DNA from: Pseudomonas bijieensis
GTDB taxonomy: Bacteria > Pseudomonadota > Gammaproteobacteria > Pseudomonadales > Pseudomonadaceae
Assembly: GCF_013347965.1 (NCBI RefSeq)
Contig: NZ_CP048810.1
Span: 5,765,501 to 5,829,500, forward strand
DNA length: 64,000 nucleotides
Direction of reading: 5' to 3'
Under the pieces are notes generated by a model, which saw only the letters and a list, made by a program, of their open reading frames with translations, searched no databases and had not been told where the DNA came from. Positions 37,191-62,313 of the stretch are shown piece by piece (the first letter of the stretch is position 1; every line of letters starts with the position of its first letter). The translations under genes were made by a program, and so were the position numbers.

Positions 37191-37280
37191 TGTGGGAGCG
37201 AGCCTGCTCGCGATGCGGTATTCCAGGCGACATTGATGTGGACTGACACACCGCTATCGCGAGCAGGCTCGCTCCCACAA
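37191..37280. repeat. REP palindrome pair, GTGGGAGCGAGC type
   Basis: TGTGGGAGCGAGCCTGCTCG and its inverted copy, about 90 bases in total, between cheR and flgB. Confidence 0.85.
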
Positions 37281-37404
37281 CGGAACGCATCCATCCTGCA
37301 GAAGCGGCAGAAAAGCGGCAGCCAGCGGAAACCAGTTGCCGCTTTTCTGGCATTGCCGCCTTGCCGGTGTCCGCAAAGCCCCGGTTTATGGGGTTTTTTG
37401 GAAA

Positions 37405-49505: not shown

Positions 49506-50183
49506 ATGAAATTACTGGTCGTCGAAGACGAAGCGCTGTTGCGTCATCACCTGCAAACCCGTCTTAGCGACAGCGGCCATGTGGTGCAGGCCGTGGCCAA
49601 TGCCGAAGAGGCCTTGTACCAGGTCCGCGAGTTCAACCATGACCTGGCGGTGATCGACCTGGGCCTGCCGGGCATCAGCGGGCTGGAACTGATCCGCCGG
49701 CTGCGCTCCCAGGACAAGACGTTTCCGATCCTGATCCTGACCGCCCGCGGCAACTGGCAGGACAAGGTCGAAGGCCTGGCCGCCGGCGCCGATGACTACG
49801 TGGTCAAGCCGTTCCAGTTCGAAGAGCTGGAGGCCCGCCTGAATGCCCTGCTGCGTCGCTCCAGCGGCTTCACCCAGTCGACCATCGTGGCTGGCCCGCT
49901 GTTGCTCGACCTCAATCGCAAGCAGGCGTCCCTGGGCGACGAGCCGCTGGCGCTGACCGCCTACGAATACCGAATCCTTGAATACCTGATGCGTCATCAC
50001 CAGCAGGTGGTCGCCAAGGATCGCTTGATGGAACAGCTTTATCCCGATGACGATGAGCGCGATCCCAATGTCATCGAAGTGCTGGTCGGGCGCCTGCGCC
50101 GCAAGCTGGAAGCCCCCGCCGGCTTCAAACCCATCGACACCGTGCGCGGCCTGGGCTACCTGTTCAACGAGCGCTGCCAGTGA
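49506..50183 (+). CDS. phoP: PhoP response regulator
   Basis: A 225-residue OmpR-type regulator responding to low Mg2+ and cationic peptides. The receiver has Asp51 in AVIDLGLPG, and the winged helix follows with LTAYEYRILEYLM and DPNVIEVLVGRLRRKLE. GGAGAGG precedes the ATG. The stop overlaps the phoQ GTG. Confidence 0.95.
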   Translation: MKLLVVEDEALLRHHLQTRLSDSGHVVQAVANAEEALYQVREFNHDLAVIDLGLPGISGLELIRRLRSQDKTFPILILTARGNWQDKVEGLAAGADDYVVKPFQFEELEARLNALLRRSSGFTQSTIVAGPLLLDLNRKQASLGDEPLALTAYEYRILEYLMRHHQQVVAKDRLMEQLYPDDDERDPNVIEVLVGRLRRKLEAPAGFKPIDTVRGLGYLFNERCQ

Positions 50184-51634
50184 TTCGTTCGCTTCGGCTG
50201 CGGTTGATGCTGGCTGCCATGACCTTGGCAGTGCTGTTCATGCTGGCACTGTTGCCGGCCATGCAAGGCGCGTTCAGCCTGGCGTTGCAGGAGTCCATCG
50301 AGCAACGCCTGGCCTCGGACGTGACCACGCTGATTTCCGCCGCCCGGGTGGAAAACAACCGCTTGAAGATGCCGACGCAACTGCCCGATGAGCGCTTCAA
50401 CCTCGCTGACGCCCGCCTGCTGGGCTACATCTATGATCGCGAGGGGCGGCTGGTGTGGCGCTCCAAGGCCACCCAGGAAGAAAACATCAATTACACGCCG
50501 CGTTATGACGGCCAGGGCAATCAGTTCGCGCGCATTCGCGAGAACGACGGCCAGGAGTTTTTTGTCTATGACGTCGAGATCAAGCTGCTCGGCGGCCAGA
50601 ACGCGGCGTTCAGCATCGTCACCCTGCAACCGGTGCGCGATTACGAGGTGACCCTGCAAGGCTTGCGGGACAATCTCTACCTGGGCTTCGGCGCTGCCTT
50701 GGTGGTGCTGCTGGCGCTGCTGTGGATCGGCTTGACCTGGGGCCTGCGGGCGCTACGACGGCTGAGTCAGGAGCTGGACGAGATCGAAAGCGGAGCCCGG
50801 GAAAGCCTCAGTACCGAGCACCCTCGGGAGCTGTTGCGCCTGACCGGTTCCCTCAACCGCCTGCTCTACAGCGAACGGGAGCAGCGCAGCCGTTACCGCG
50901 ACTCTCTTGATGACCTGGCCCACAGCCTGAAAACCCCGCTGGCGGTATTGCAGGGTGTCAGCGAAGACATGGCCCGGCGTCCCGAGGATCGTGGGCAGGC
51001 CTGGGTGTTGCAGAGCCAGATCGAGCGCATGAGCCAGCAGATCGGCTATCAGTTGCAGCGCGCCAGCCTGCGCAAAAGCGGGCTGGTGCGCCATCAGGTG
51101 CGCTTGCGCCCGGTGCTGCAAAGCCTGTGCGATACCTTGGACAAGGTCTATCGCGACAAACGGGTCAATGTCAGTTTCGATCTGCCGGAGCAGTGTCAGG
51201 TGCCAATCGAACAGGGCGCCTTGCTGGAGATGCTCGGCAACCTGTTGGAGAACGCCTATCGGCTATGCCTGGGCGAGGTACGCGTGAGCGTGCACCAGAC
51301 CCTCGGTGGCATGGAGTTGAGTGTCGAGGACGACGGGCCGGGCGTGCCACCGGATCAACGAGCGCGGATTCTCCAGCGTGGTGAGCGGCTGGATCGCCAG
51401 CATCCGGGGCAGGGCATTGGCCTGGCGGTGGTCAAGGACATCATCGACAGCTACGGCGCCAAGTTGACTTTGGGGGGATTCAGAGCTGGGCGGGGCGGCG
51501 TTCCGGATTCATTTTCCGGTGGTTTGACTGGGATATTTTCGGTGTGTGTGCGGGCCTCTGTGGCGAGGGGATTTATCCCCGCTGGGCTGCGTAGCAGCCC
51601 CCAAACAGACAACTCGGTGTGCCAGGTAGATTGA
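50180..51634 (+). CDS. phoQ: PhoQ sensor kinase, C-terminus frameshifted
   Basis: Mg2+-sensing membrane kinase. The N-terminal membrane helix, acidic periplasmic sensor, second helix (about 165-188), HAMP, H-box (DLAHSLKTPLAVL) and HATPase (LGNLLENAYRLC, DDGPGVPP, GQGIGLAVVKDIID) are all present. At GGGGGG (51472-51477) the frame shifts: removing one G gives the family-like ending GDSELGGAAFRIHFPVV and a stop at 51525-51527 (448 residues). As printed, the frame instead runs through a REP element to 51634 with an unrelated tail of about 50 residues. GTG start overlapping phoP. Confidence 0.9.
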   Translation: MIRSLRLRLMLAAMTLAVLFMLALLPAMQGAFSLALQESIEQRLASDVTTLISAARVENNRLKMPTQLPDERFNLADARLLGYIYDREGRLVWRSKATQEENINYTPRYDGQGNQFARIRENDGQEFFVYDVEIKLLGGQNAAFSIVTLQPVRDYEVTLQGLRDNLYLGFGAALVVLLALLWIGLTWGLRALRRLSQELDEIESGARESLSTEHPRELLRLTGSLNRLLYSEREQRSRYRDSLDDLAHSLKTPLAVLQGVSEDMARRPEDRGQAWVLQSQIERMSQQIGYQLQRASLRKSGLVRHQVRLRPVLQSLCDTLDKVYRDKRVNVSFDLPEQCQVPIEQGALLEMLGNLLENAYRLCLGEVRVSVHQTLGGMELSVEDDGPGVPPDQRARILQRGERLDRQHPGQGIGLAVVKDIIDSYGAKLTLGGFRAGRGGVPDSFSGGLTGIFSVCVRASVARGFIPAGLRSSPQTDNSVCQVD

Positions 51635-52722
51635 GTCACTGCTTTAGGGCTGCTGCGCAGCCCAACGGGGATAAATCCCCTCGCCACAGGGGCAGCACCC
51701 CGCAGGAACTGGATGCCACCACTCAGTTCTCCATCGCCCGATAAGCCCCCCGGTGTCAGCCCCGTCCACTTCTTGAATGCTCGGTGAAACGCCGACGGTT
51801 CGGAGAACCCCAACTGCTCGGCGATCTGTTGTAGTGACAGGTCCGCGCGTCCCAGGTGATAGATGGCGATATCCCGCCGCAACTGATCCTTGAGTTCCTG
51901 GAAGCTGGTGCCTTCCTCCCGCAAGTGCCGGCGCAAGGTCTGCGGGCTGAGGTGCAGATGGGCGGCGACGGTGTCCAGGTCGGGCCAGCGTGCCGTGTCG
52001 CGGCTGAGCAGGCGGCGCAGTTGGCTGCTCAGGCTGTGGCCGTCGTCCGGACGCGACAGCAGGTCGGCGGGGGAGCGCTCGAGGAAATGCTTGAGGGTGC
52101 GTTCGTCCTGCAGCAGCGGCATTTCCAGGTAGCGACTATGGAACAACAGGCTGCTGCTGCGGGCGTCGAACACCAGCGGACAGGGAAACAATAAGTCGTA
52201 TTCGGCGCCGTGGGCGGGTTTGGTATAGCCGAAGGTCGCCTGTTCCAGGCCGATCCGCTGGCCGATCAGCCAACTGGCGAGGCGATGCCAGACCACCAGC
52301 AGGCTTTCAGTCAGGAAGTGATCGGGGTCCCAGAGCGTCGAATCGTCCAGCACCAGTCGCACTCGCTCGCCTTCGGTTTCCAGCGTCAGGCTCGGGGCGT
52401 CGGGGAACAGGCTGTAGAACAGCAAGCCACGCTGAAGAGCCTTGCCCAGGGTCCGACAGTGAATCAACGCGTGACACATCATGGCAAACGTCCCGGGTTT
52501 ACTCGCCGCCCGGCCGAATCCCAGGTATTCGTCCCCCAGTGCCAGCCACAGAGCCTGCAACAGGCGGGCGAATTGCTCGGGCGCAATCCGCGCCCGCGGC
52601 TCATCCAACAGCTCAGGGCTGATGCCCAGCTGTTGCAGCAGGGGAAAATAGTCGAAGCCTTGCCGACGCGCACCGCCCAGGGCGGCGCGGGCGAAGTGGC
52701 TGGCGATCGTGCGTTGGCGCAT
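51451..52722 (-). CDS. AraC family transcriptional regulator, C-terminus frameshifted
   Basis: N-terminal ligand-binding domain of the Arabinose_bd type (FPLLQQLGISPELLDEPRARI) and C-terminal HTH_18 (VAAHLHLSPQTLRRHLREEGTSFQ, LSLQQIAEQLGFSEPSAFHRAFKKWTGLTPG). After TPG the family continues AYRAMEN-stop. Removing one base from the C6 run at 51746-51751 restores exactly that, ending at 51723 (332 residues). As printed the frame continues through a REP element for about 95 residues and falsely overlaps phoQ. It lies divergent from dctA; the target is unknown. Confidence 0.88.
   Translation of the reverse strand: MRQRTIASHFARAALGGARRQGFDYFPLLQQLGISPELLDEPRARIAPEQFARLLQALWLALGDEYLGFGRAASKPGTFAMMCHALIHCRTLGKALQRGLLFYSLFPDAPSLTLETEGERVRLVLDDSTLWDPDHFLTESLLVVWHRLASWLIGQRIGLEQATFGYTKPAHGAEYDLLFPCPLVFDARSSSLLFHSRYLEMPLLQDERTLKHFLERSPADLLSRPDDGHSLSSQLRRLLSRDTARWPDLDTVAAHLHLSPQTLRRHLREEGTSFQELKDQLRRDIAIYHLGRADLSLQQIAEQLGFSEPSAFHRAFKKWTGLTPGGLSGDGELSGGIQFLRGAAPVARGFIPVGLRSSPKAVTQSTWHTELSVWGLLRSPAGINPLATEARTHTENIPVKPPENESGTPPRPALNPPKVNLAP
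51558..51690. repeat. REP palindrome pair, GTGGCGAGGGGATTTATCCCC type
   Basis: Long inverted arms between the true ends of phoQ and the araC-type gene. The out-of-frame tails of both genes read through it, explaining the shared GFIP/GLRSSP-like residues. Confidence 0.85.
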
Positions 52723-52777
52723 GGCAGAAATCCGTCCGTTAAGCGGGCGATGGTAGCAGGGGGGGAGGGCTGAACAA

Positions 52778-52832
52778 GGCGGATATCCGCCAAATCCCGG
52801 AATGCGAAACGGCTTGTAGGCGGAAATCCGCC
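52778..52832. promoter_or_regulatory. Paired palindromic operators upstream of dctA
   Basis: GGCGGATATCCGCC (52778-52791) and GGCGGAAATCCGCC (52819-52832), centres 41 bases apart (about four helical turns). They lie about 80 bases before a sigma-54 promoter, fitting enhancer sites for a DctD-like activator. A third, weaker match lies near 52857-52868. Confidence 0.7.
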
Positions 52833-52909
52833 ACCTTACACGTCACGTTTAATCCCTGTGGAATCCGCTAACCCGTCTGCTATACCGGATGTAGGGGGTT
52901 TCGCAAAAA

Positions 52910-52925
52910 TGGCACGCGCTTTGCG
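52910..52925 (+). promoter_or_regulatory. Sigma-54 promoter of dctA
   Basis: TGGCAC-GCGCT-TTGCG with the required GG/GC spacing, 130 bases before the dctA start. Confidence 0.85.
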
Positions 52926-53054
52926 AAGGGTTAGGTAGGTCTGCCGCGTGCAGCCGACAAAAAACAAATCCCTCCAGTGCAGGAGGGTTCGCAATTGAGG
53001 TGCCGTTGATGACAGGTGGATGTCGTCATGCGGGACTCTTGAGGAAGGTTTGCC

Positions 53055-54407
53055 ATGACGACTCGTCAGCCACTGTACAAATCCCTGTATTTCCAGGTGA
53101 TCGTAGCCATTGCCATCGGTATTTTGCTCGGCCACTTCTACCCGCAGACCGGTGTTGCCCTCAAGCCATTCGGCGACGGGTTCATCAAACTGATCAAAAT
53201 GGTCATCGCCCCCATCATCTTCTGTACCGTCGTCAGCGGCATCGGCGGCATGCAGAACATGAAATCGGTGGGCAAGACTGGCGGCTATGCGCTGCTGTAC
53301 TTCGAAATCGTCTCCACCATCGCCCTGCTGATCGGCCTGGTCGTGGTCAACGTCGTACAGCCGGGCGTTGGCATGCACATCGACGTGGCAACCCTGGACA
53401 CCAGCAAGATCGCCGGTTTCATCTCGGCTGGTAAAGACCAGAGCATCATCGCCTTCATCCTCAACGTGATCCCGAACACCATCGTGGGTGCGTTCGCCAA
53501 CGGCGACATCCTGCAAGTGTTGATGTTCTCGGTGCTCTTCGGTTTCGCCCTGCATCGCCTGGGTGCCTACGGCAAGCCGGTGCTGGACTTCATCGATCGC
53601 TTCGCCCACGTGATGTTCATCATCATCAACATGATCATGAAGCTGGCGCCTATCGGTGCGTTCGGTGCCATGGCCTTCACCATCGGTGCCTACGGTGTCG
53701 GTTCGCTGGTGCAACTGGGCCAGCTGATGATCTGCTTCTACATCACTTGCGTGGTGTTCGTGCTGGTGGTGCTGGGCGCCATCTGCCGCGCCCACGGTTT
53801 CAGCGTGGTCAAGCTGATCCGCTACATCCGTGAAGAACTGCTGATCGTGCTGGGTACTTCCTCGTCGGAATCGGCCCTGCCACGCATGCTGATCAAGATG
53901 GAGCGCCTGGGTGCCAAGAAGTCGGTCGTAGGCCTGGTCATCCCGACTGGCTACTCGTTCAACCTCGACGGTACTTCGATCTACCTGACCATGGCTGCGG
54001 TGTTCATCGCCCAGGCCACCGACACCCCAATGGACCTGACTCACCAGATCACCCTGCTGCTGGTGCTGCTGCTGTCGTCCAAAGGTGCTGCTGGCGTGAC
54101 CGGTAGCGGTTTCATCGTACTGGCGGCCACCCTGTCGGCCGTGGGCACCTTGCCGGTGGCCGGCCTTGCACTGATCCTGGGTATCGACCGCTTCATGTCC
54201 GAAGCCCGCGCCCTGACCAACCTGGTGGGCAACGCCGTTGCCACGATCGTGGTTGCCAAGTGGGTCAAGGAGCTGGACGAGAACCAACTGCAGACCGAAC
54301 TGGCTTCCGGCGGTCGCGGTATCTCCGACGTCCGTGAAGATGACGAGCAGATTGCGGCGGCGCAGATTGCAGCGGCAGAGTCCTCTGCTCCAGGCGCTGT
54401 GAAGTAA
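53055..54407 (+). CDS. dctA: C4-dicarboxylate transporter DctA
   Basis: A 450-residue cation symporter for succinate, fumarate and malate in the inner membrane. Many hydrophobic helices, with the DAACS-family motifs [39 protein letters not shown] and [19 protein letters not shown]. The C-terminal about 30 residues are a hydrophilic tail. The control region (two enhancer-like sites and a sigma-54 promoter) suggests DctB/DctD control. Fully intact. Confidence 0.95.
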
Positions 54408-54423
54408 GCTACAGGCTGTAATG

Positions 54424-54448
54424 AAAAACCCGCTTCGGCGGGTTTTTT
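54424..54448 (+). terminator. dctA terminator
   Basis: AAAAACCCGC-TTCG-GCGGGTTTTTT. Confidence 0.92.
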
Positions 54449-54508
54449 ATTGCGCCTGAGTTCGCAAGATAAGTGTGCTTTTGTGCCAAGGGGATTTATC
54501 CCACACTC

Positions 54509-54594
54509 TGTGGGAGCAAGGCTTGCCCGCGATGAAGGCGATGCGGTCTTTCAGGATTGAGGCGCCTGTTTCGCGAGCAAGCTTTGCTCCCACA
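54509..54594. repeat. REP palindrome pair, GTGGGAGCAAGGCTTGCCCGCG type
   Basis: Inverted pair occupying most of the 313-base gap between dctA and the CoA-transferase gene; the rest of that gap shows no gene. Confidence 0.8.
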
Positions 54595-54720
54595 GCCCAG
54601 CGTCGCCACACGGATCTGTGCCAGCCATGAGCACAATCGTCATTCGATGTGACACCTGCGGTAATTGCCCCACCGCCAACCCCTGCCTAGTCTTTCACCA
54701 TCACCCCTCGGAGATCGCTC

Positions 54721-55902
54721 ATGCAAGGCCCACTGGCATCGCTCAAGGTTCTGGACTTCTCGACCCTGCTGCCCGGCCCATTCGCCTCGCTGTTGCTGGC
54801 GGACATGGGAGCCGAGGTGTTGCGCATCGAGTCGCCGACCCGCCAGGACCTTTTGCGGGTACTACCGCCCCATGACCGGGGCGTATCGGCCAGCCACGCC
54901 TACCTCAACCGCAACAAGCGCAGCCTGGCCCTGGACCTCAAGCAACCGCAAGCGTTGGAGGTGGTCACGCAGTTGCTGGCGGACTACGACATCCTGCTGG
55001 AGCAGTTCCGCCCTGGCGTGATGGAGCGACTGGGCCTGGGGTATGAGGCCTTGAAGGCGATCAACCCACGGTTGATCTATGTGTCGATCACCGGCTATGG
55101 CCAGACCGGCCCCTATAAGGACCGCGCCGGGCACGACATCAACTACCTGGCCTTGGCGGGGCTGGCCAGTCATACCGGCCGCGCCGACAGCGGCCCACTG
55201 CCGCTGGGGATCCAGGCGGCGGACATTGCTGGCGGTTCGCTACACGGGGTGATCGGGCTGTTGGCAGCGGTGATTGCCCGTCAGCAGACCGGGCAGGGCC
55301 AGCACCTGGATGTGAGCATGACCGACTGTGTATTCAGCCTGAACGCCATGGCCGGTGCCGGTTACCTGGCCTGTGGGGTGGAACCGGGTTGGGAAAACCA
55401 GATGCTCAACGGCGGCAGTTTCTACGACTATTACCGCACCCGCGATGGTCGCTGGATGTCGGTGGGCAGCCTGGAACCGGCCTTCATGCAGGCGCTGTGC
55501 GAGGCTTTGGGGCGACCGGAGCTGGCGGCCCAGGGGCTGTCGCCTCAACCCGAGCAACAGCGCATGCTCAAGCAGGCACTGCAAGCGGAGTTCGAGAAGC
55601 ATGATTTCGCCGAGCTTTGCAGCTTGTTCGCCGGGATCGATGCCTGTGTCGAACCGGTGCTGAGTCTTGAGGAAACCATCAGGCATCCGCAGCTACAGGC
55701 TCGGGAGCTGGTGACACAGGTGCCCCGTGGCGATGGTTCGAGCCAGGCGCAGATGGCCTGTCCGCTGAAATTTTCCGAAGGGTTGCCCGAGCCTCGGCAT
55801 ATTGGCGCGGGGCTGGGGGCGCATACGGATCAGGTGTTGGGGGAGTTGGGGTTCAGTGTTGAGCGGATTGCTCAATTGCGCAGTGCCCAGGTGATTTTGT
55901 AG
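54721..55902 (+). CDS. CaiB/BaiF family (class III) CoA-transferase
   Basis: A 393-residue enzyme moving CoA between carboxylic acids. The N-terminus (LASLKVLDFSTLLPGPFASLLLADMGAEVLRIE) and NRNKRSLALDLK are typical, and the catalytic Asp is in the AGHDINYLALAG segment. GGAG is upstream of the ATG. It stands alone with REP elements on both sides; substrates are not deducible. Confidence 0.92.
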   Translation: MQGPLASLKVLDFSTLLPGPFASLLLADMGAEVLRIESPTRQDLLRVLPPHDRGVSASHAYLNRNKRSLALDLKQPQALEVVTQLLADYDILLEQFRPGVMERLGLGYEALKAINPRLIYVSITGYGQTGPYKDRAGHDINYLALAGLASHTGRADSGPLPLGIQAADIAGGSLHGVIGLLAAVIARQQTGQGQHLDVSMTDCVFSLNAMAGAGYLACGVEPGWENQMLNGGSFYDYYRTRDGRWMSVGSLEPAFMQALCEALGRPELAAQGLSPQPEQQRMLKQALQAEFEKHDFAELCSLFAGIDACVEPVLSLEETIRHPQLQARELVTQVPRGDGSSQAQMACPLKFSEGLPEPRHIGAGLGAHTDQVLGELGFSVERIAQLRSAQVIL

Positions 55903-55918
55903 TGCTTTCAAGTGCCCT

Positions 55919-55993
55919 TCGCGAGCAGGCTCGCTCCCACAGTGGATCCATGTACGACGCAAATCCCCCTGTGGGAGCGAGCCTGCTCGCGAT
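55919..55993. repeat. REP palindrome pair, GTGGGAGCGAGC type (inverted order)
   Basis: TCGCGAGCAGGCTCGCTCCC then its complement, between convergent genes. Confidence 0.85.
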
Positions 55994-56022
55994 AGGGCCA
56001 GTCGAAACTCTACAAAAAATTG

Positions 56023-56517
56023 CTATTCGACCCGCGTCTCTCCACTGAACACCAAGGTCTGTCGACAACTACGACACAAATATCGCCGTCCCTGGCGCAC
56101 CAGGCTGTGGCGCTGGGCCGAAAACGGGAAGTCACTGCCGTCGCAGGGGCATTTGTAGATGTAGCGGGTCACGCTGCGGCGTTTGATTTCGTAGGTGTGG
56201 CAACGGTTGGGCGGCAGTTCGTACACCCCGCGCATGATCAGTTGCCATTCTTCGCCATGGGGCTGGATGCGCTCGCCAAACAGTTGGTGGGCGATCAGGT
56301 GCGCGACTTCGTGAGCGACGGTCTGCTTGAGGAAGTCTTCGGCGTTTTCCCGGTACAACTGTGGATTGAAGCGCAGCAGATTCTCATGCAGGTGCGCGAC
56401 ACCGGCCTTCTGGCCACGCAACTTGAGGCTGACCACCGGGCGTTTGAAAGGACGTTTGAAAAAGGATTCGGCTTGTTGGTAACACTCTTCGACGCGGGTA
56501 TTGAGTTGCTCGAGCAT
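56023..56517 (-). CDS. sprT: SprT family zinc metalloprotease
   Basis: A 164-residue SprT-like protein with the zinc-binding HEVAHLIAHQLFG motif and a C-terminal zinc ribbon (CPC near 123, CRSC near 149). The biological substrate in bacteria is unclear; the fold is shared with Spartan proteases. Full family length. Confidence 0.93.
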   Translation of the reverse strand: MLEQLNTRVEECYQQAESFFKRPFKRPVVSLKLRGQKAGVAHLHENLLRFNPQLYRENAEDFLKQTVAHEVAHLIAHQLFGERIQPHGEEWQLIMRGVYELPPNRCHTYEIKRRSVTRYIYKCPCDGSDFPFSAQRHSLVRQGRRYLCRSCRQTLVFSGETRVE

Positions 56518-56615
56518 GCTTTACGGGTCTCCAGAAATCCGAGTATGCCGCAAGCGTCGGCCGTTGCGAATCGTTCAGGCGCCCAGTGGTCGTTTCCACC
56601 CTCGCAAACACAGGA

Positions 56616-56635
56616 AGGCCGCCTTGCGGCGGCCT
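56616..56635 (-). terminator. GC-rich hairpin after the Yip1-type gene
   Basis: AGGCCGCC-TTGC-GGCGGCCT with a short, impure T-stretch; possible terminator. Confidence 0.45.
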
Positions 56636-56676
56636 GTGTTGGCAGATCCTGCTTCTTATTGGAGAGCTTCAATCAT

Positions 56677-57279
56677 TCAGTTGGTATACACCGGGCCGAC
56701 GCCCAGCCCCCAGACGATGACCGTGAACGCCATGATTGCCACCAGCACTACCAGGCCGACGGCGAGCACCGAACTGGAAAACAGGAAACCTTCGTCCTGG
56801 GGAATGTTCATGAACGTTGGCAGACCCACATACAGCAGGTAGACCGTGTAGCAGATCGCCGCCGTGCCGACGATCATCCCCAGCCACATGTGCGGGTAGA
56901 GCGCCGCCAGGCCGCCGATGAACAAAGGTGTTGCGGTGTAGGTGGCGAACGCAACGCAACGGGCCAGACTCGGATTGGCATCATAGGTGCGGGCCATCCA
57001 ATGGATGAAAGCGCCCATCACTGCCACACCGCCCAACATGGCCAGGTACGACATGATGGTCATCCACAGCGCGCTTTCCTGGGTGAGCATGACCGGTGGG
57101 CGATTGCCGATGACCCATCCTACCTGTGTGGTACCGATGAACGCCGACACGGCGGGAATAGCCGCCAGGATCAGCGTGTGGGTGAGGTACATGTGGCTGA
57201 TGCTTTCCTCCTGATCGCCACGGATTTCTTTCCATTCTTGATCAGGGTGGGTAAAGAGCCCCACGACATGATGGATCAT
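56677..57279 (-). CDS. Yip1 family inner-membrane protein
   Basis: A 200-residue protein of unknown function. Begins MIHHVVGLFTHPDQEWKEIR (a Yip1-domain opening) followed by five hydrophobic helices. AAAGGAGTGAC lies upstream of the ATG. Single gene. Confidence 0.9.
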   Translation of the reverse strand: MIHHVVGLFTHPDQEWKEIRGDQEESISHMYLTHTLILAAIPAVSAFIGTTQVGWVIGNRPPVMLTQESALWMTIMSYLAMLGGVAVMGAFIHWMARTYDANPSLARCVAFATYTATPLFIGGLAALYPHMWLGMIVGTAAICYTVYLLYVGLPTFMNIPQDEGFLFSSSVLAVGLVVLVAIMAFTVIVWGLGVGPVYTN

Positions 57280-57690
57280 AGTCAGTCACTCCTTTGTTAT
57301 TGCCATCGCCCCCCAACGGAGCGCCTACGGGCCAAATGGCCGGGTAAGTAAAGGTCTGTAAGTGTGTGCGACCTTATGTCGCAGTATAGAAAGGAGTCGC
57401 CGCGAGGGGGATGGGGGGCTTAGAGCAAATCGCGCTGTAGGCGATGGTGTTAATCGCCGATGGGTCTGTACATGACTTGGCAACGAAATTCACTTTGTGG
57501 CGAGGCGATTGTGGGAGCAAGGCTTGCCTGCGATGGAAGCGATGCGGTCTTTCAGAAACCGAGGCGTCTGTTTCGCGAGCAAGCTTTGCTCCCACAATCT
57601 TGACCACAACAGTGGTGCATCAACCCTTCGCCGACGGCGGATTTTTGCGTAAAATGCCGGCCTTTCGTCACACCTCACGGATTTCGCGTC
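57280..57690. other. Intergenic region before ttcA
   Basis: 411 bases with a REP pair (57508-57597) and no gene. Confidence 0.4.
57508..57597. repeat. REP palindrome pair, GTGGGAGCAAGGCTTGCC type
   Basis: ATTGTGGGAGCAAGGCTTGC and its inverted copy. Confidence 0.85.
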
Positions 57691-58515
57691 ATGGGCACTC
57701 TTACGGTCAACCAGAACAAACTGCAAAAGCGCCTGCGCCGCCAGGCCGGTGAGGCGGTCGCCGATTTCAACATGATCGAGGACGGCGACAAGGTCATGGT
57801 CTGCCTGTCCGGTGGTAAGGACAGCTACACCTTGCTCGATGTGCTGATGCATCTGCAGAAGGTTGCGCCGATCAAGTTCGACATCGTCGCGGTGAACATG
57901 GACCAGAAGCAGCCCGGTTTCCCCGAGCATGTGCTGCCGGCCTACCTTGAGTCGCTGGGCGTGGAATACCACATCGTCGAGAAAGACACCTATTCGGTGG
58001 TCAAGGAACTGATTCCCGAAGGCAAGACCACCTGTTCGCTGTGCTCACGCCTGCGGCGCGGCACGCTCTACACCTTCGCCGACGAGATCGGTGCGACCAA
58101 GATGGCCCTGGGTCACCACCGTGACGACATCGTCGAAACGTTCTTTTTGAACATGTTCTACAACGGCTCGCTCAAGGCCATGCCGCCCAAGCTGCGCGCC
58201 GATGACGGGCGCAATGTGGTGATCCGCCCGCTGGCCTATTGCAGCGAGAAAGACATCCAGGCCTATTCGGATTTCAAGCAGTTCCCGATCATCCCCTGCA
58301 ACCTCTGCGGCTCCCAGGAAAACCTGCAACGTCAGGTGGTCAAGGAGATGCTTCAGGAATGGGAGCGCAAGACCCCGGGCCGTACCGAGAGCATTTTCCG
58401 CGGCTTGCAGAATGTCATCCCATCGCAACTGGCGGACCGCAACCTGTTCGACTTCACCAACCTGCGCATCGACGAAAACGCCACGCCGCGGTTCGTCAAT
58501 GTGGTGAACCTCTGA
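57691..58515 (+). CDS. ttcA: TtcA, tRNA 2-thiocytidine synthetase
   Basis: A 274-residue iron-sulphur enzyme that thiolates cytidine 32 of tRNAs. The PP-loop [11 protein letters not shown] activates the base, [10 protein letters not shown] supplies the CxxC cluster ligands and CNLCGSQ the third region. Full length. A terminator follows. Confidence 0.95.
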
Positions 58516-58535
58516 CGAGGGCAAGGGCTTTATTC

Positions 58536-58558
58536 ACGGCGCTCGCGGGCGCCGTTTT
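58536..58558 (+). terminator. ttcA terminator
   Basis: ACGGCGC / GCGCCGT stem followed by a short T-run; 18 bases before the next start, so some read-through is likely. Confidence 0.65.
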
Positions 58559-58575
58559 CATTTCAGGGAGAGGGC

Positions 58576-59250
58576 ATGCGCGATTACAAGTGGTTACACG
58601 AGTATTGTCTGAACCGCTTCGGTTCGGCGGCTGAACTGGAAGCTCACCTGCCGGTTCCCAAGACCCCGGCGCAACTGCGCAAGATCAGCGACGACCGCTA
58701 CCTCTCGACCATGGCGCTGCGGGTCTTCCGTGCCGGGCTCAAGCACAGCCTGGTGGACGCCAAGTGGCCGGCCTTCGAAGAGGTGTTCTTCAAGTTCGAT
58801 CCGGAAAAAGTCGTGCTGATGAGCGCCGAGCACCTGGAGCGGCTGATGCAGGACGCACGGATCATTCGCCACCTGGGCAAGCTCAAGAGCGTGCCGCGTA
58901 ACGCGCAGCTGATATTGGACGTGGCCCATGAAAAGGGCAGCTTCGGCGCGCTGGTAGCCGACTGGCCGGTGACCGATATCGTCGGCCTGTGGACCTATCT
59001 GAAAAAGCATGGCCATCAGTTGGGTGGCCTATCGGCACCGCGCTTCCTGCGCATGATGGGCAAGGACACCTTCGTGCCCAGCTATGACGTGGTGGCGGCG
59101 CTCAATGCCCAGGACATCATCGACAAAGTCCCCACCAGCCTGCGCGACCTGGCGACAGTGCAGAACGCCTTCAACCAGTGGCATGAAGAGAGTGGGGGAC
59201 GGCCGATGAGCCAGATTTCGATGATGCTGGCGTATACCGTGAATCATTGA
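58576..59250 (+). CDS. DNA-3-methyladenine glycosylase I family protein
   Basis: A 224-residue HhH-fold protein resembling the Tag family of base-excision enzymes. Features: LSTMALRVFRAGLKHSLVDAKWPAFEEVF, ARIIRHLGKLKSVPRNAQLI, and a helix-hairpin region. The Tag zinc-site residues are not obvious, so substrate specificity may differ from classical Tag. GGGAGAGG precedes the ATG. Confidence 0.85.
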   Translation: MRDYKWLHEYCLNRFGSAAELEAHLPVPKTPAQLRKISDDRYLSTMALRVFRAGLKHSLVDAKWPAFEEVFFKFDPEKVVLMSAEHLERLMQDARIIRHLGKLKSVPRNAQLILDVAHEKGSFGALVADWPVTDIVGLWTYLKKHGHQLGGLSAPRFLRMMGKDTFVPSYDVVAALNAQDIIDKVPTSLRDLATVQNAFNQWHEESGGRPMSQISMMLAYTVNH

Positions 59251-59256
59251 GATCGC

Positions 59257-59330
59257 ATCGCGAGCAGACTCGCCCCACACTGGATCTGTGGCGTTCACAA
59301 CACCTCTGTGGGAGCGAGCCTGCTCGCGAA
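59257..59330. repeat. REP palindrome pair, GTGGGAGCGAGC type
   Basis: ATCGCGAGCAGACTCGCCCC and a matching GTGGGAGCGAGCCTGCTCGC arm; one arm has diverged. Confidence 0.8.
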
Positions 59331-59340
59331 TAGCAATTTA

Positions 59341-60714
<1,374 letters not shown>

Positions 60715-60828
60715 GAGCGGGTCGCATCTTGCGTAAGGTGGCGGCTATTCTACTGTGCCGCGAAGTCCCTAGCACCTTAGAGAGGCGACGGGTCGCAGCA
60801 GCGTTCACATTCAGACAAGGATTGGTAC

Positions 60829-61293
60829 ATGACAAGGCGATTGACGGCGGCATTGATCTTCATGGGCAGCTTATTGCTCGCCGGCTGCGGGAACGACTAC
60901 GGGGTGGACCAGAACGGTCAGGCCATCGCCTCGCAGCGGCTGGACAAACAGTGGGTGGTACTTAACTACTGGGCGGAATGGTGCGCACCGTGCCGCACCG
61001 AAATCCCGGAATTCAATGCCTTGGCCGAACAGCTCAAGGGCCGCAACGTCGGTGTGTTCGGGGTCAATTTCGACCAGGTGCAGGGCGAAGAACTCAAGAG
61101 CGCCAGCGACAAGATGGGGATTCGCTTCACGGTGTTGGCCCGGGATCCGGCCGAGATATTCGATCTTCCTCGCAGCGAAGGGCTGCCGGTGACTTACATC
61201 ATCGATAACCAGGGCAAGGTGCGCGAGCAGTTGCTGGGGGGAGCAGACGGCGGCGGGGGTGATGGCCAAGCTGGAGGCGTTGCAGGCGCTTAA
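60829..61293 (+). CDS. TlpA-type thioredoxin-like lipoprotein, C-terminus frameshifted
   Basis: An exported disulfide-handling protein. The signal ends in a lipobox (LLLAGC), and the thioredoxin fold has the active site WCAPC and cis-Pro in GLPVTYII. At GGGGGG (61236-61241) removing one G restores the reading GEQTAAGVMAKLEALQALK and a stop at 61295-61297 (155 residues). As printed, the protein ends in a glycine-rich artefact. Divergent from arsC. Confidence 0.88.
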   Translation: MTRRLTAALIFMGSLLLAGCGNDYGVDQNGQAIASQRLDKQWVVLNYWAEWCAPCRTEIPEFNALAEQLKGRNVGVFGVNFDQVQGEELKSASDKMGIRFTVLARDPAEIFDLPRSEGLPVTYIIDNQGKVREQLLGGADGGGGDGQAGGVAGA

Positions 61294-61320
61294 ATAGCAC
61301 ACGTTGTAGCTTGGGGCTTT

Positions 61321-61446
61321 TGTGGCGAGGGAGCTTGCTCCCGCTGGGCTGCGAAGCAGCCCCAAGATGTATCTGTCACCTCAATGCTTCAGGCCGAACG
61401 CGTGGGCCTGCTGCGCAGTCCAGCGGGAGCAAGCTCCCTCGCCACA
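61321..61446. repeat. REP palindrome pair, GTGGCGAGGGAGCTTGCTCCC type
   Basis: Inverted arms with an inner GCTGGGCTGC...GCGCAGTCCAGC pair. The printed frame of the META-domain gene runs into it. Confidence 0.85.
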
Positions 61447-61879
61447 GGTGCTTTGGCACACTCGGGAATAGCCTCAGCCTTCTTCCAACCACCAACGCAA
61501 CGGCTTGCCCTGGGCCGGCCAGAAGCGCATTTGCTCGATGGGCGAGATGTCCCAGCGTTCGACCTTTTCCAGGGCCTGCAAAAAAGCGCGTCTCCTGCTC
61601 CATCACCGCCGGGGAACAGAGTTTGCGCGTGCTGCCGATCTTGCCGAAGCTCAAACGGTGGCCTTCCAGGGTATAGGGCGCGAACCAGTGGTTGCAGCCG
61701 CCGTTGCCATAGGCGCGACCGTCATCCCCAAGGGTGATGGTCAGGTGGCTGTAGTCCATCAATGGCCGTTCGCCGATCCATTCCAGGATGTAGCTGCGGT
61801 TGTGTTGCAGTTGCACAGGTTCAGCGGCACACCCCATCAGGCTCAGGCCGATCGACGCGCACAGGGCCAAACGTTTCAT
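61376..61879 (-). CDS. META-domain lipoprotein, C-terminus frameshifted
   Basis: The lipobox is LSLMGC, followed by an HslJ/META-like domain (LTITLGDDGRAYGNGGCNHW, LSFGKIGSTRKLC). At the run of six A on the plus strand (61580-61585, TTTTTT in the gene), removal of one base restores LQALEKVERWDISPIEQMRFW and then PAQGKPLRWWLEEG with a stop at 61474-61476. As printed the frame is wrong after CRF-type residues near 100 and continues to 61376. The start ATG overlaps the stop of the upstream gene (ATGA). Confidence 0.82.
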   Translation of the reverse strand: MKRLALCASIGLSLMGCAAEPVQLQHNRSYILEWIGERPLMDYSHLTITLGDDGRAYGNGGCNHWFAPYTLEGHRLSFGKIGSTRKLCSPAVMEQETRFFAGPGKGRTLGHLAHRANALLAGPGQAVALVVGRRLRLFPSVPKHLWRGSLLPLDCAAGPRVRPEALR

Positions 61880-62313
61880 CAGGCGGCTTCCCGGCATTTC
61901 GGGCACAGGTGTTTTTCACCGACGGTGGTCCAGCCCAGTTCGGCGATTCGCGCGGTGGCGGCCGGTTTCTCGGCCTTGACGCCGAGCTTGGCATCGACGG
62001 CGAATTCGAAGCTCAGTTCCTTGGCGCAAGCGTCACAGTTGACCTGCCAGGTATGGATCGCCAGTTCGCCGAATACCGGGCCGGTGGTCATGGCGGTCCA
62101 TTGGCCCATGGGCTTGAGCAGGTGCCGAACGGTGTCCACGGTCAGGCGCATGGACAAGTCCTTGCTGCCCTTGAGCGTGACGAGCAACACATCGTTGGCC
62201 TGGATCGAACCGCCGTTGCCGGTGACCTGGTAACGGCCCGGCGCCAAGGCGCGGACTTCGGTCAAGGTGTGCTGCGGGTTCATCAGGGTGTAGCGGAAAT
62301 CGTGTTCGGCCAT
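61879..62313 (-). CDS. Conserved hypothetical protein with C-terminal zinc-ribbon cysteines
   Basis: A 144-residue cytosolic protein of unknown function. Two CxxC pairs (CDAC about 95-98, CPKC near the end) suggest a zinc site. GGAGGACCC lies before the ATG at 62313. Translationally coupled to the META-domain lipoprotein gene. The name PA-type orthologue is not certain. Confidence 0.82.
   Translation of the reverse strand: MAEHDFRYTLMNPQHTLTEVRALAPGRYQVTGNGGSIQANDVLLVTLKGSKDLSMRLTVDTVRHLLKPMGQWTAMTTGPVFGELAIHTWQVNCDACAKELSFEFAVDAKLGVKAEKPAATARIAELGWTTVGEKHLCPKCREAA

Follow-up and report, generated by a model that had tools for sequence, protein, structure and literature searches.

Repetitive extragenic palindromic (REP) sequences in Pseudomonas form inverted pairs, the REP doublets forming hairpins (REPINs), known from the accessible parts of two reports (PMC3116915, PMC8049555) as mobile repeats. 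Repeats also bear on assembly quality: in the accessible portion of the Polypolish report, residual long-read errors are described as mostly of homopolymer length and as often outlasting short-read polishing in repeats, where short-read alignment is unreliable (PMC8812927). The Illumina indel error is raised around inverted repeats, according to the part of a review that could be consulted (PMC4719071), and the folding of inverted repeats has been proposed as an error source in the available text of a further paper (PMC3334598). The locus described here lies in a 64,000-base stretch, called the window, of a Pseudomonas chromosome assembled as one contig of 6.73 Mb (G000:C1:5765501-5829500). 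Four of its genes each have one extra base in a six-base homopolymer, and the REPIN is the missing link behind these four neighbouring frame breaks. The extra bases are read as residual homopolymer-length errors in the assembly, not as mutations, with a probability of about 0.92. Positions given in bases are those of the window unless ascribed to the chromosome.

The four runs belong to two convergent gene pairs, with a REPIN between the members of each pair. On the left, the open reading frame (ORF) of a sensor histidine kinase (50180..51634, + strand; phoQ-type by its earlier name, only its domains having been examined here) carries a G6 run at 51472-51477, 88 bp from REP marks, and the ORF of an AraC-type regulator (51451..52722, - strand; Arabinose_bd and HTH_18 domains) carries a run of six C, in + strand letters, at 51746-51751, 68 bp from REP marks; both frames are broken near the 3' end. 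On the right, a TlpA/thioredoxin-type ORF (60829..61293, + strand; AhpC-TSA/Thioredoxin), whose last codons are out of frame, carries a G6 run at 61236-61241, 86 bp from REP marks, and a META-domain ORF (61376..61906, - strand; META), also with a broken frame, carries a run of six A, in + strand letters, at 61580-61585, 144 bp from REP marks. The left REPIN (51554..51693) has arms at 51554-51608 and 51639-51693 (55 nt, 89% complementary, 30 nt apart) and many matching copies elsewhere in the genome, and the right one (61321..61446) has arms at 61321-61364 and 61403-61446 (44 nt, 93% complementary, 38 nt apart), neither having a strand assigned. Two inverted REPs, a short spacer and many genome copies, the features that define a REPIN, are thereby all found. 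The out-of-frame tail of the AraC-type ORF reads through its REPIN, and that of the META-domain ORF reads into the other.

A six-base run is by itself ordinary in the window, which holds 40 runs of exactly six bases and 58 of six or more; what is unusual is the length difference from the relatives. Every aligned relative is one base short of the window at each of the four runs, and many of them have shorter or interrupted runs at these sites. At 51472, 51746, 61236 and 61580, the relative was one base shorter in 80/80, 74/74, 51/51 and 39/39 named loci, respectively (out of 80 such loci), and in 27/27, 15/15, 25/25 and 29/29 members of a second genome set (out of 58). Pooled over the four sites, the window was longer in 244/244 named-locus and 96/96 second-set comparisons, the two sets partly overlapping and therefore not being independent; in 6 comparisons (1 + 1 + 4), the aligner placed its one-base gap 4-12 nt off the start of the run. 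Only collinear alignments of at least 80% identity were kept, with a minimum length of 500-600 bases (250 or 200 at REPIN loci). The closest named matches of the kinase protein include P. brassicacearum, P. kilonensis and P. thivervalensis (97-98%), and among the genomes scored across 53.1-55.9 kb the nearest is G060 (93%).

The sequence-only reading had located these four extra bases and had named relatives sharing the six-base runs, with the same C-termini, as one finding that would overturn it. The positions were right, and no aligned relative at the four sites has the longer run. Its prediction of five bases in each run was only partly borne out, the many shorter or interrupted runs of the relatives departing from the predicted number. 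It had also claimed that removal of one base would give each gene back a family-like C-terminus. DNA homology to the relatives extends beyond each of the four runs, with a one-base gap, which places each frame break at the extra base or very close to it; the regained C-termini are further suggested by domain reach in three of the genes, where the match ends early before the run (HATPase_c at 88/111, alongside a weak HisKA match, HTH_18 at 71/80 and META at 75/109) and the intact proteins of the complete relative G409 reach 109, 79 and 104. This domain evidence does not extend to the TlpA-type gene, in which the whole domain precedes the run.

Gains of one base (+1s) beside REPs are not confined to the four genes. 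Across the 44,448 bases for which at least three of six relatives could be compared, a scan for window-specific, non-triplet indels of 1-10 bases on which every covering relative agrees gave +1s in 11/11 cases and zero deletions. Seven of these gains are in runs of at least six bases, and the remaining four (3640, 33927, 40672 and 59329) are outside homopolymers of at least three. A REP cluster is present within 300 bp of 8/11, set against 17.5% of the covered sites, and two of these eight (40672 and 59329) are non-homopolymer gains at REPs; indels within REPs were not taken as evidence because of natural REP variation. All indel lists exclude indels above 10 bases and multiples of three.

The same clustering was found in a three-genome survey of 5.44-5.84 Mb of the chromosome (window included) against the syntenic stretches of G409 and a further complete relative, G310, all three being ~7-8% diverged, with ~340-344 kb aligned. 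Genome-specific 1-nt indels comprised 64 insertions and 29 deletions in this genome, 42 and 39 in G409, and 43 and 55 in G310, and +1s in runs of 4 or more numbered 37, 13 and 11. With the first REP pattern used, 29/37 of this genome's +1s fell within 277 bp of a REP cluster, the next being at 712 bp; two apparent outliers (chromosome 5444017 and 5444292) flank a REPIN family missed by that pattern. A broader pattern placed 31/37 within 300 bp (27/32 outside the window), compared with 3/13 and 4/11 in the relatives, the aligned sites at this distance amounting to 14% in this genome and 13.5% and 11% in the relatives. The numbers of REP clusters are 82 here and 81 and 75 there. Nearby runs of 5 or more were lengthened in 17/133 cases at paired or longer REPs and in 0/30 at single REPs, and the REP-linked +1s are found on either side, 14 on the left and 19 on the right. 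Within 300 bp of REPs, the +1 frequency by ancestral run length was 8/1634 for 3, 6/392 for 4, 11/104 for 5, 3/35 for 6 and 1/18 for at least 7, so that the rate climbs to run length 5 with no further climb. The gains thus prefer homopolymers, as residual sequencing error does, and are present in one assembly and absent from its relatives; no excess of homopolymer deletions beside REPs was found. In genes called in both other genomes, there were 20 +1s in this genome and 13 and 9 in the relatives, of which 16/20, 1/13 and 1/9 are no more than 300 bp from a REP mark by a hand reading of the list. Indels in this survey were kept only if they had the same left-aligned position in both comparison genomes, a filter that discards sites where intergenic DNA aligns poorly, may depress the counts for non-coding DNA, and removed 61236 from the coding list, this site being found in the comparison with the window's relatives and in the frameshift count.

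The REP-side +1s bear no mark of purifying selection. Among ancestral runs of at least 5, a gain of one or two bases was seen in called genes at 15/74 within 300 bp of REPs and 0/452 beyond, and in non-coding DNA at 2/89 near and 3/182 beyond. Because the gene caller selects the longest ORF, a hit close to a called start may precede the true one. For this reason, and because the genes of the relatives had been delimited in part with calls from this genome, the count was repeated without any gene call from this genome and with the first 120 nt of each gene removed. Gene bodies then gave 10/59 near and 0/378 beyond (p 1e-9), 5' edges gave 5/15 near and 0/74 beyond, and runs of at least 5 in the relatives' gene bodies near REPs gave 0/47 and 0/43. 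With the G310 gene calls instead, the figures were 10/57 near and 0/361 beyond, and 3/85 for non-coding DNA near REPs. Near REPs, gene-body runs are thus lengthened more often than non-coding ones (10/59 versus 2/89, p 0.003), the opposite of the trace expected of selection. More than 300 bp from REPs, extra bases in runs of at least 5 are found in non-coding DNA only, as selection would leave them, and runs of 4 in genes are lengthened in 1/1409, much like the relatives. No substitution excess beside REPs peculiar to this genome was found, the values beside and far from REPs being 0.036 and 0.028 here, 0.033 and 0.036 in G409, and 0.038 and 0.030 in G310.

The ribosomal RNA (rRNA) operons provide a separate view of the assembly. 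Operons within one genome are normally near-identical. The four readable operons of this genome (L252, L253, L254 and L255) have 9, 13, 29 and 19 indel bases in 16S and 23S relative to a G287 operon, 58/70 of which are in runs of three or more (hand count), at positions that vary among the copies; a single G5 run is shortened in two copies, lengthened in one and unchanged in one. These inconsistent homopolymer indels indicate errors of homopolymer length in the longest repeats of the assembly. In G310, two copies have 0 and 0 indel bases and the other two at most one in 16S and 23S, and in G409 (L262, L263, L264 and L265) there are 14, 8, 9 and 10, only 3/41 in runs of three or more, which suggests a different kind of assembly error. 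A 16S copy that is incomplete was considered as a sign of an assembly break and dropped, the stretch containing N letters; it was not counted.

Taken together, the relatives' run lengths and the REPIN-side clustering uphold systematic homopolymer miscalls as the leading explanation, as the sequence-only reading had proposed. The inferred course of events is that a consensus with homopolymer errors was later corrected by accurate reads across most of the chromosome, and that this correction did not succeed at repeats or next to strong hairpins, regions in which short reads would be ambiguous or scarce. Errors are concentrated at repeats both in the REP halo and in the rRNA operons, with opposite signs in the two. 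Several observations weigh against miscalls. The rRNA indels are deletions in 67/70 cases and the REPIN-side ones are insertions, and one error process does not obviously cover both; the G409 rRNA copies bear indel bases, yet G409 shows no REPIN halo. Replication elsewhere is uneven. In a second block of the chromosome (5.04-5.44 Mb, 187 kb aligned, G409 only), runs within 300 bp of REPs made up 6/17 of those longer in this genome and 5/27 of those longer in G409, little or no excess, compared with 44/65 and 16/41 by the same pairwise count in the first block, and a third block (40 kb) had 1/3 longer runs near REPs; three near runs of 4 or more in the second block do break genes, at 5.367-5.391 Mb. 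Distant REPIN loci (2.58, 0.54, 3.65 and 2.90 Mb), picked for their resemblance to the REPIN at 51.5 kb and not for their errors, were also uneven: a +1 next to the REPIN is supported by all four relatives at L003 and L005 and by two of four at L004, and the only gains at L006 are within the REPIN itself or supported by one relative (L002, which is in the first block, L007, with a poor anchor, and L008 were left out). The halo is therefore not limited to one place, yet uneven. Many +1s are close to the end of a gene, a place where a real frameshift may be tolerated, so that the selection argument is not absolute, and the REP pattern was noticed in the stretch and then used for counting, so that the p-values do not come from a blind test. 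The probability is set at 0.92 and no higher because the evidence consists of assembled sequences alone, and because of the difference in sign and the uneven replication.

Were the extra bases real, REPIN hairpins or the REP-associated tyrosine transposase (RAYT) would have to induce local +1 slippage in the neighbouring homopolymers of this strain. The preference for paired or longer REPs over single ones and the placing of gains on either side of the clusters would suit such a mechanism, but the relatives, with similar numbers of REP clusters, have no comparable halo, the gene-body gains are without a trace of selection, neither homopolymer deletions nor substitutions peculiar to this genome are in excess beside REPs, and several conserved genes would change at once. 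Real mutations of this origin are accordingly considered improbable, as is the picture that goes with them, of hairpins driving recent, almost insertion-only slippage to a distance of ~280 bp, each REPIN centring a small frameshift zone that alters the neighbouring genes. A general mutator or decaying strain, with frameshifts accumulating everywhere, could account for the net frameshifts seen here in 65/286 G409 genes and 46/284 G310 genes (a crude count that includes multi-indel cases and gene-end differences); more than 300 bp from REPs, however, gains in gene runs are absent at lengths of at least 5 and at the relatives' level at length 4, and this explanation is very improbable.

The sequence-only reading had also offered slippage-prone 3' ends, in case the runs were real. 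All four sites are homopolymers near gene 3' ends, which programmed or transcriptional slippage at conserved slippery ends would explain, but the longer run occurs in no aligned relative, and six-base runs are short for transcriptional slippage. Of the 16 +1s within 300 bp of a REP in genes called in both relatives, 11 are close to the end of the gene and 5 to its called start, by a hand reading of the list, and the common factor is closeness to a REP cluster; shared 3'-end slippage was set aside on account of the +1s near called starts, and programmed slippage is given next to no credence.

If the frame breaks were genuine, the list of altered genes would be long. G409 orthologues of genes with a gain of one or two bases in this genome include, above the NCBIfam cut-off, mannose-1-phosphate guanylyltransferase, MltF, a PQQ membrane dehydrogenase, a NosR-family response regulator, RuvC, peroxiredoxin C and ApbC. 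In RuvC, MltF, ApbC and mannose-1-phosphate guanylyltransferase, among others, the gain falls within the portion that aligns to the family. Weaker matches, mostly below the model cut-offs, are PhoH-like, diguanylate cyclase (above the cut-off only as a GGDEF domain), LysR-type, Vmh-type and FabG-type, and Pfam matches among the affected genes comprise a polysaccharide deacetylase, a PAS/HTH regulator and a pilus-type domain. An RlmF orthologue carries two indels that together shift the frame. The orthologues of glycerol-3-phosphate dehydrogenase and L-serine ammonia-lyase have a +1 near the called start, which, judged from where the family match begins, probably falls before the true start. 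A fifth gene of the window has the same +1 in a T6 run (37394..37399, + strand), 135 bp from the marks of a further REP pair at 37200-37259, and its orthologue has no family match in NCBIfam (1e-20) or Pfam (1e-5). Many +1s lie in the last 220 nt of the gene, so not every affected gene would be dead, and family searches of the orthologues identified no strictly essential gene among those affected; the alteration of so many genes at once is nonetheless unlikely.

Some further observations concern hairpins and REPs in this genome. In the first block, three specific gains away from REPs (chromosome 5483787, 5505612 and 5798050) are in terminator poly-A/T runs beside ordinary hairpins, outside called genes, and may be either natural variation or the same error. 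Outside the span of the four genes, a specific +1 in an A8 run at window 32550 adjoins a hairpin with 15-bp arms, and another in a T7 run at window 40450 is 46 bp from a REP cluster. Over 5.44-5.84 Mb, the commonest 14-letter words are of the GAGCCTGCTCGC type in this genome and of the GAGCTTGCTCGC type in G409 and G310, and REP-internal substitutions stand at 0.095, compared with 0.056 and 0.061 in the relatives; together these differences possibly reflect a shift in the REP population of this genome.

For genome annotation, the kinase, araC-, tlpA- and META-type genes and the other REPIN neighbours should not be taken as lost. REPIN-rich Pseudomonas assemblies may conceal clustered false frameshifts flanking short repeats, by which pseudogene surveys would be misled; should the runs be confirmed as real, the pattern would be a strong lead on repeat-driven mutagenesis. 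A REPIN-centred error halo was not found in a narrow literature search of titles and abstract openings, with most subscription journals outside its reach. As in the available accounts of Pseudomonas REPINs (PMC3116915, PMC8049555), the elements here are paired inverted REPs between genes, with many copies per genome; the one-base gain in the flanking homopolymers is a feature of this genome not met in the parts of those accounts that could be consulted. The errors resemble those of the Polypolish report, as far as its accessible text goes (PMC8812927), in being frame-breaking homopolymer indels favoured at repeats, and differ from them in that the halo extends ~280 bp beside the REPINs and is almost only of insertion sign.

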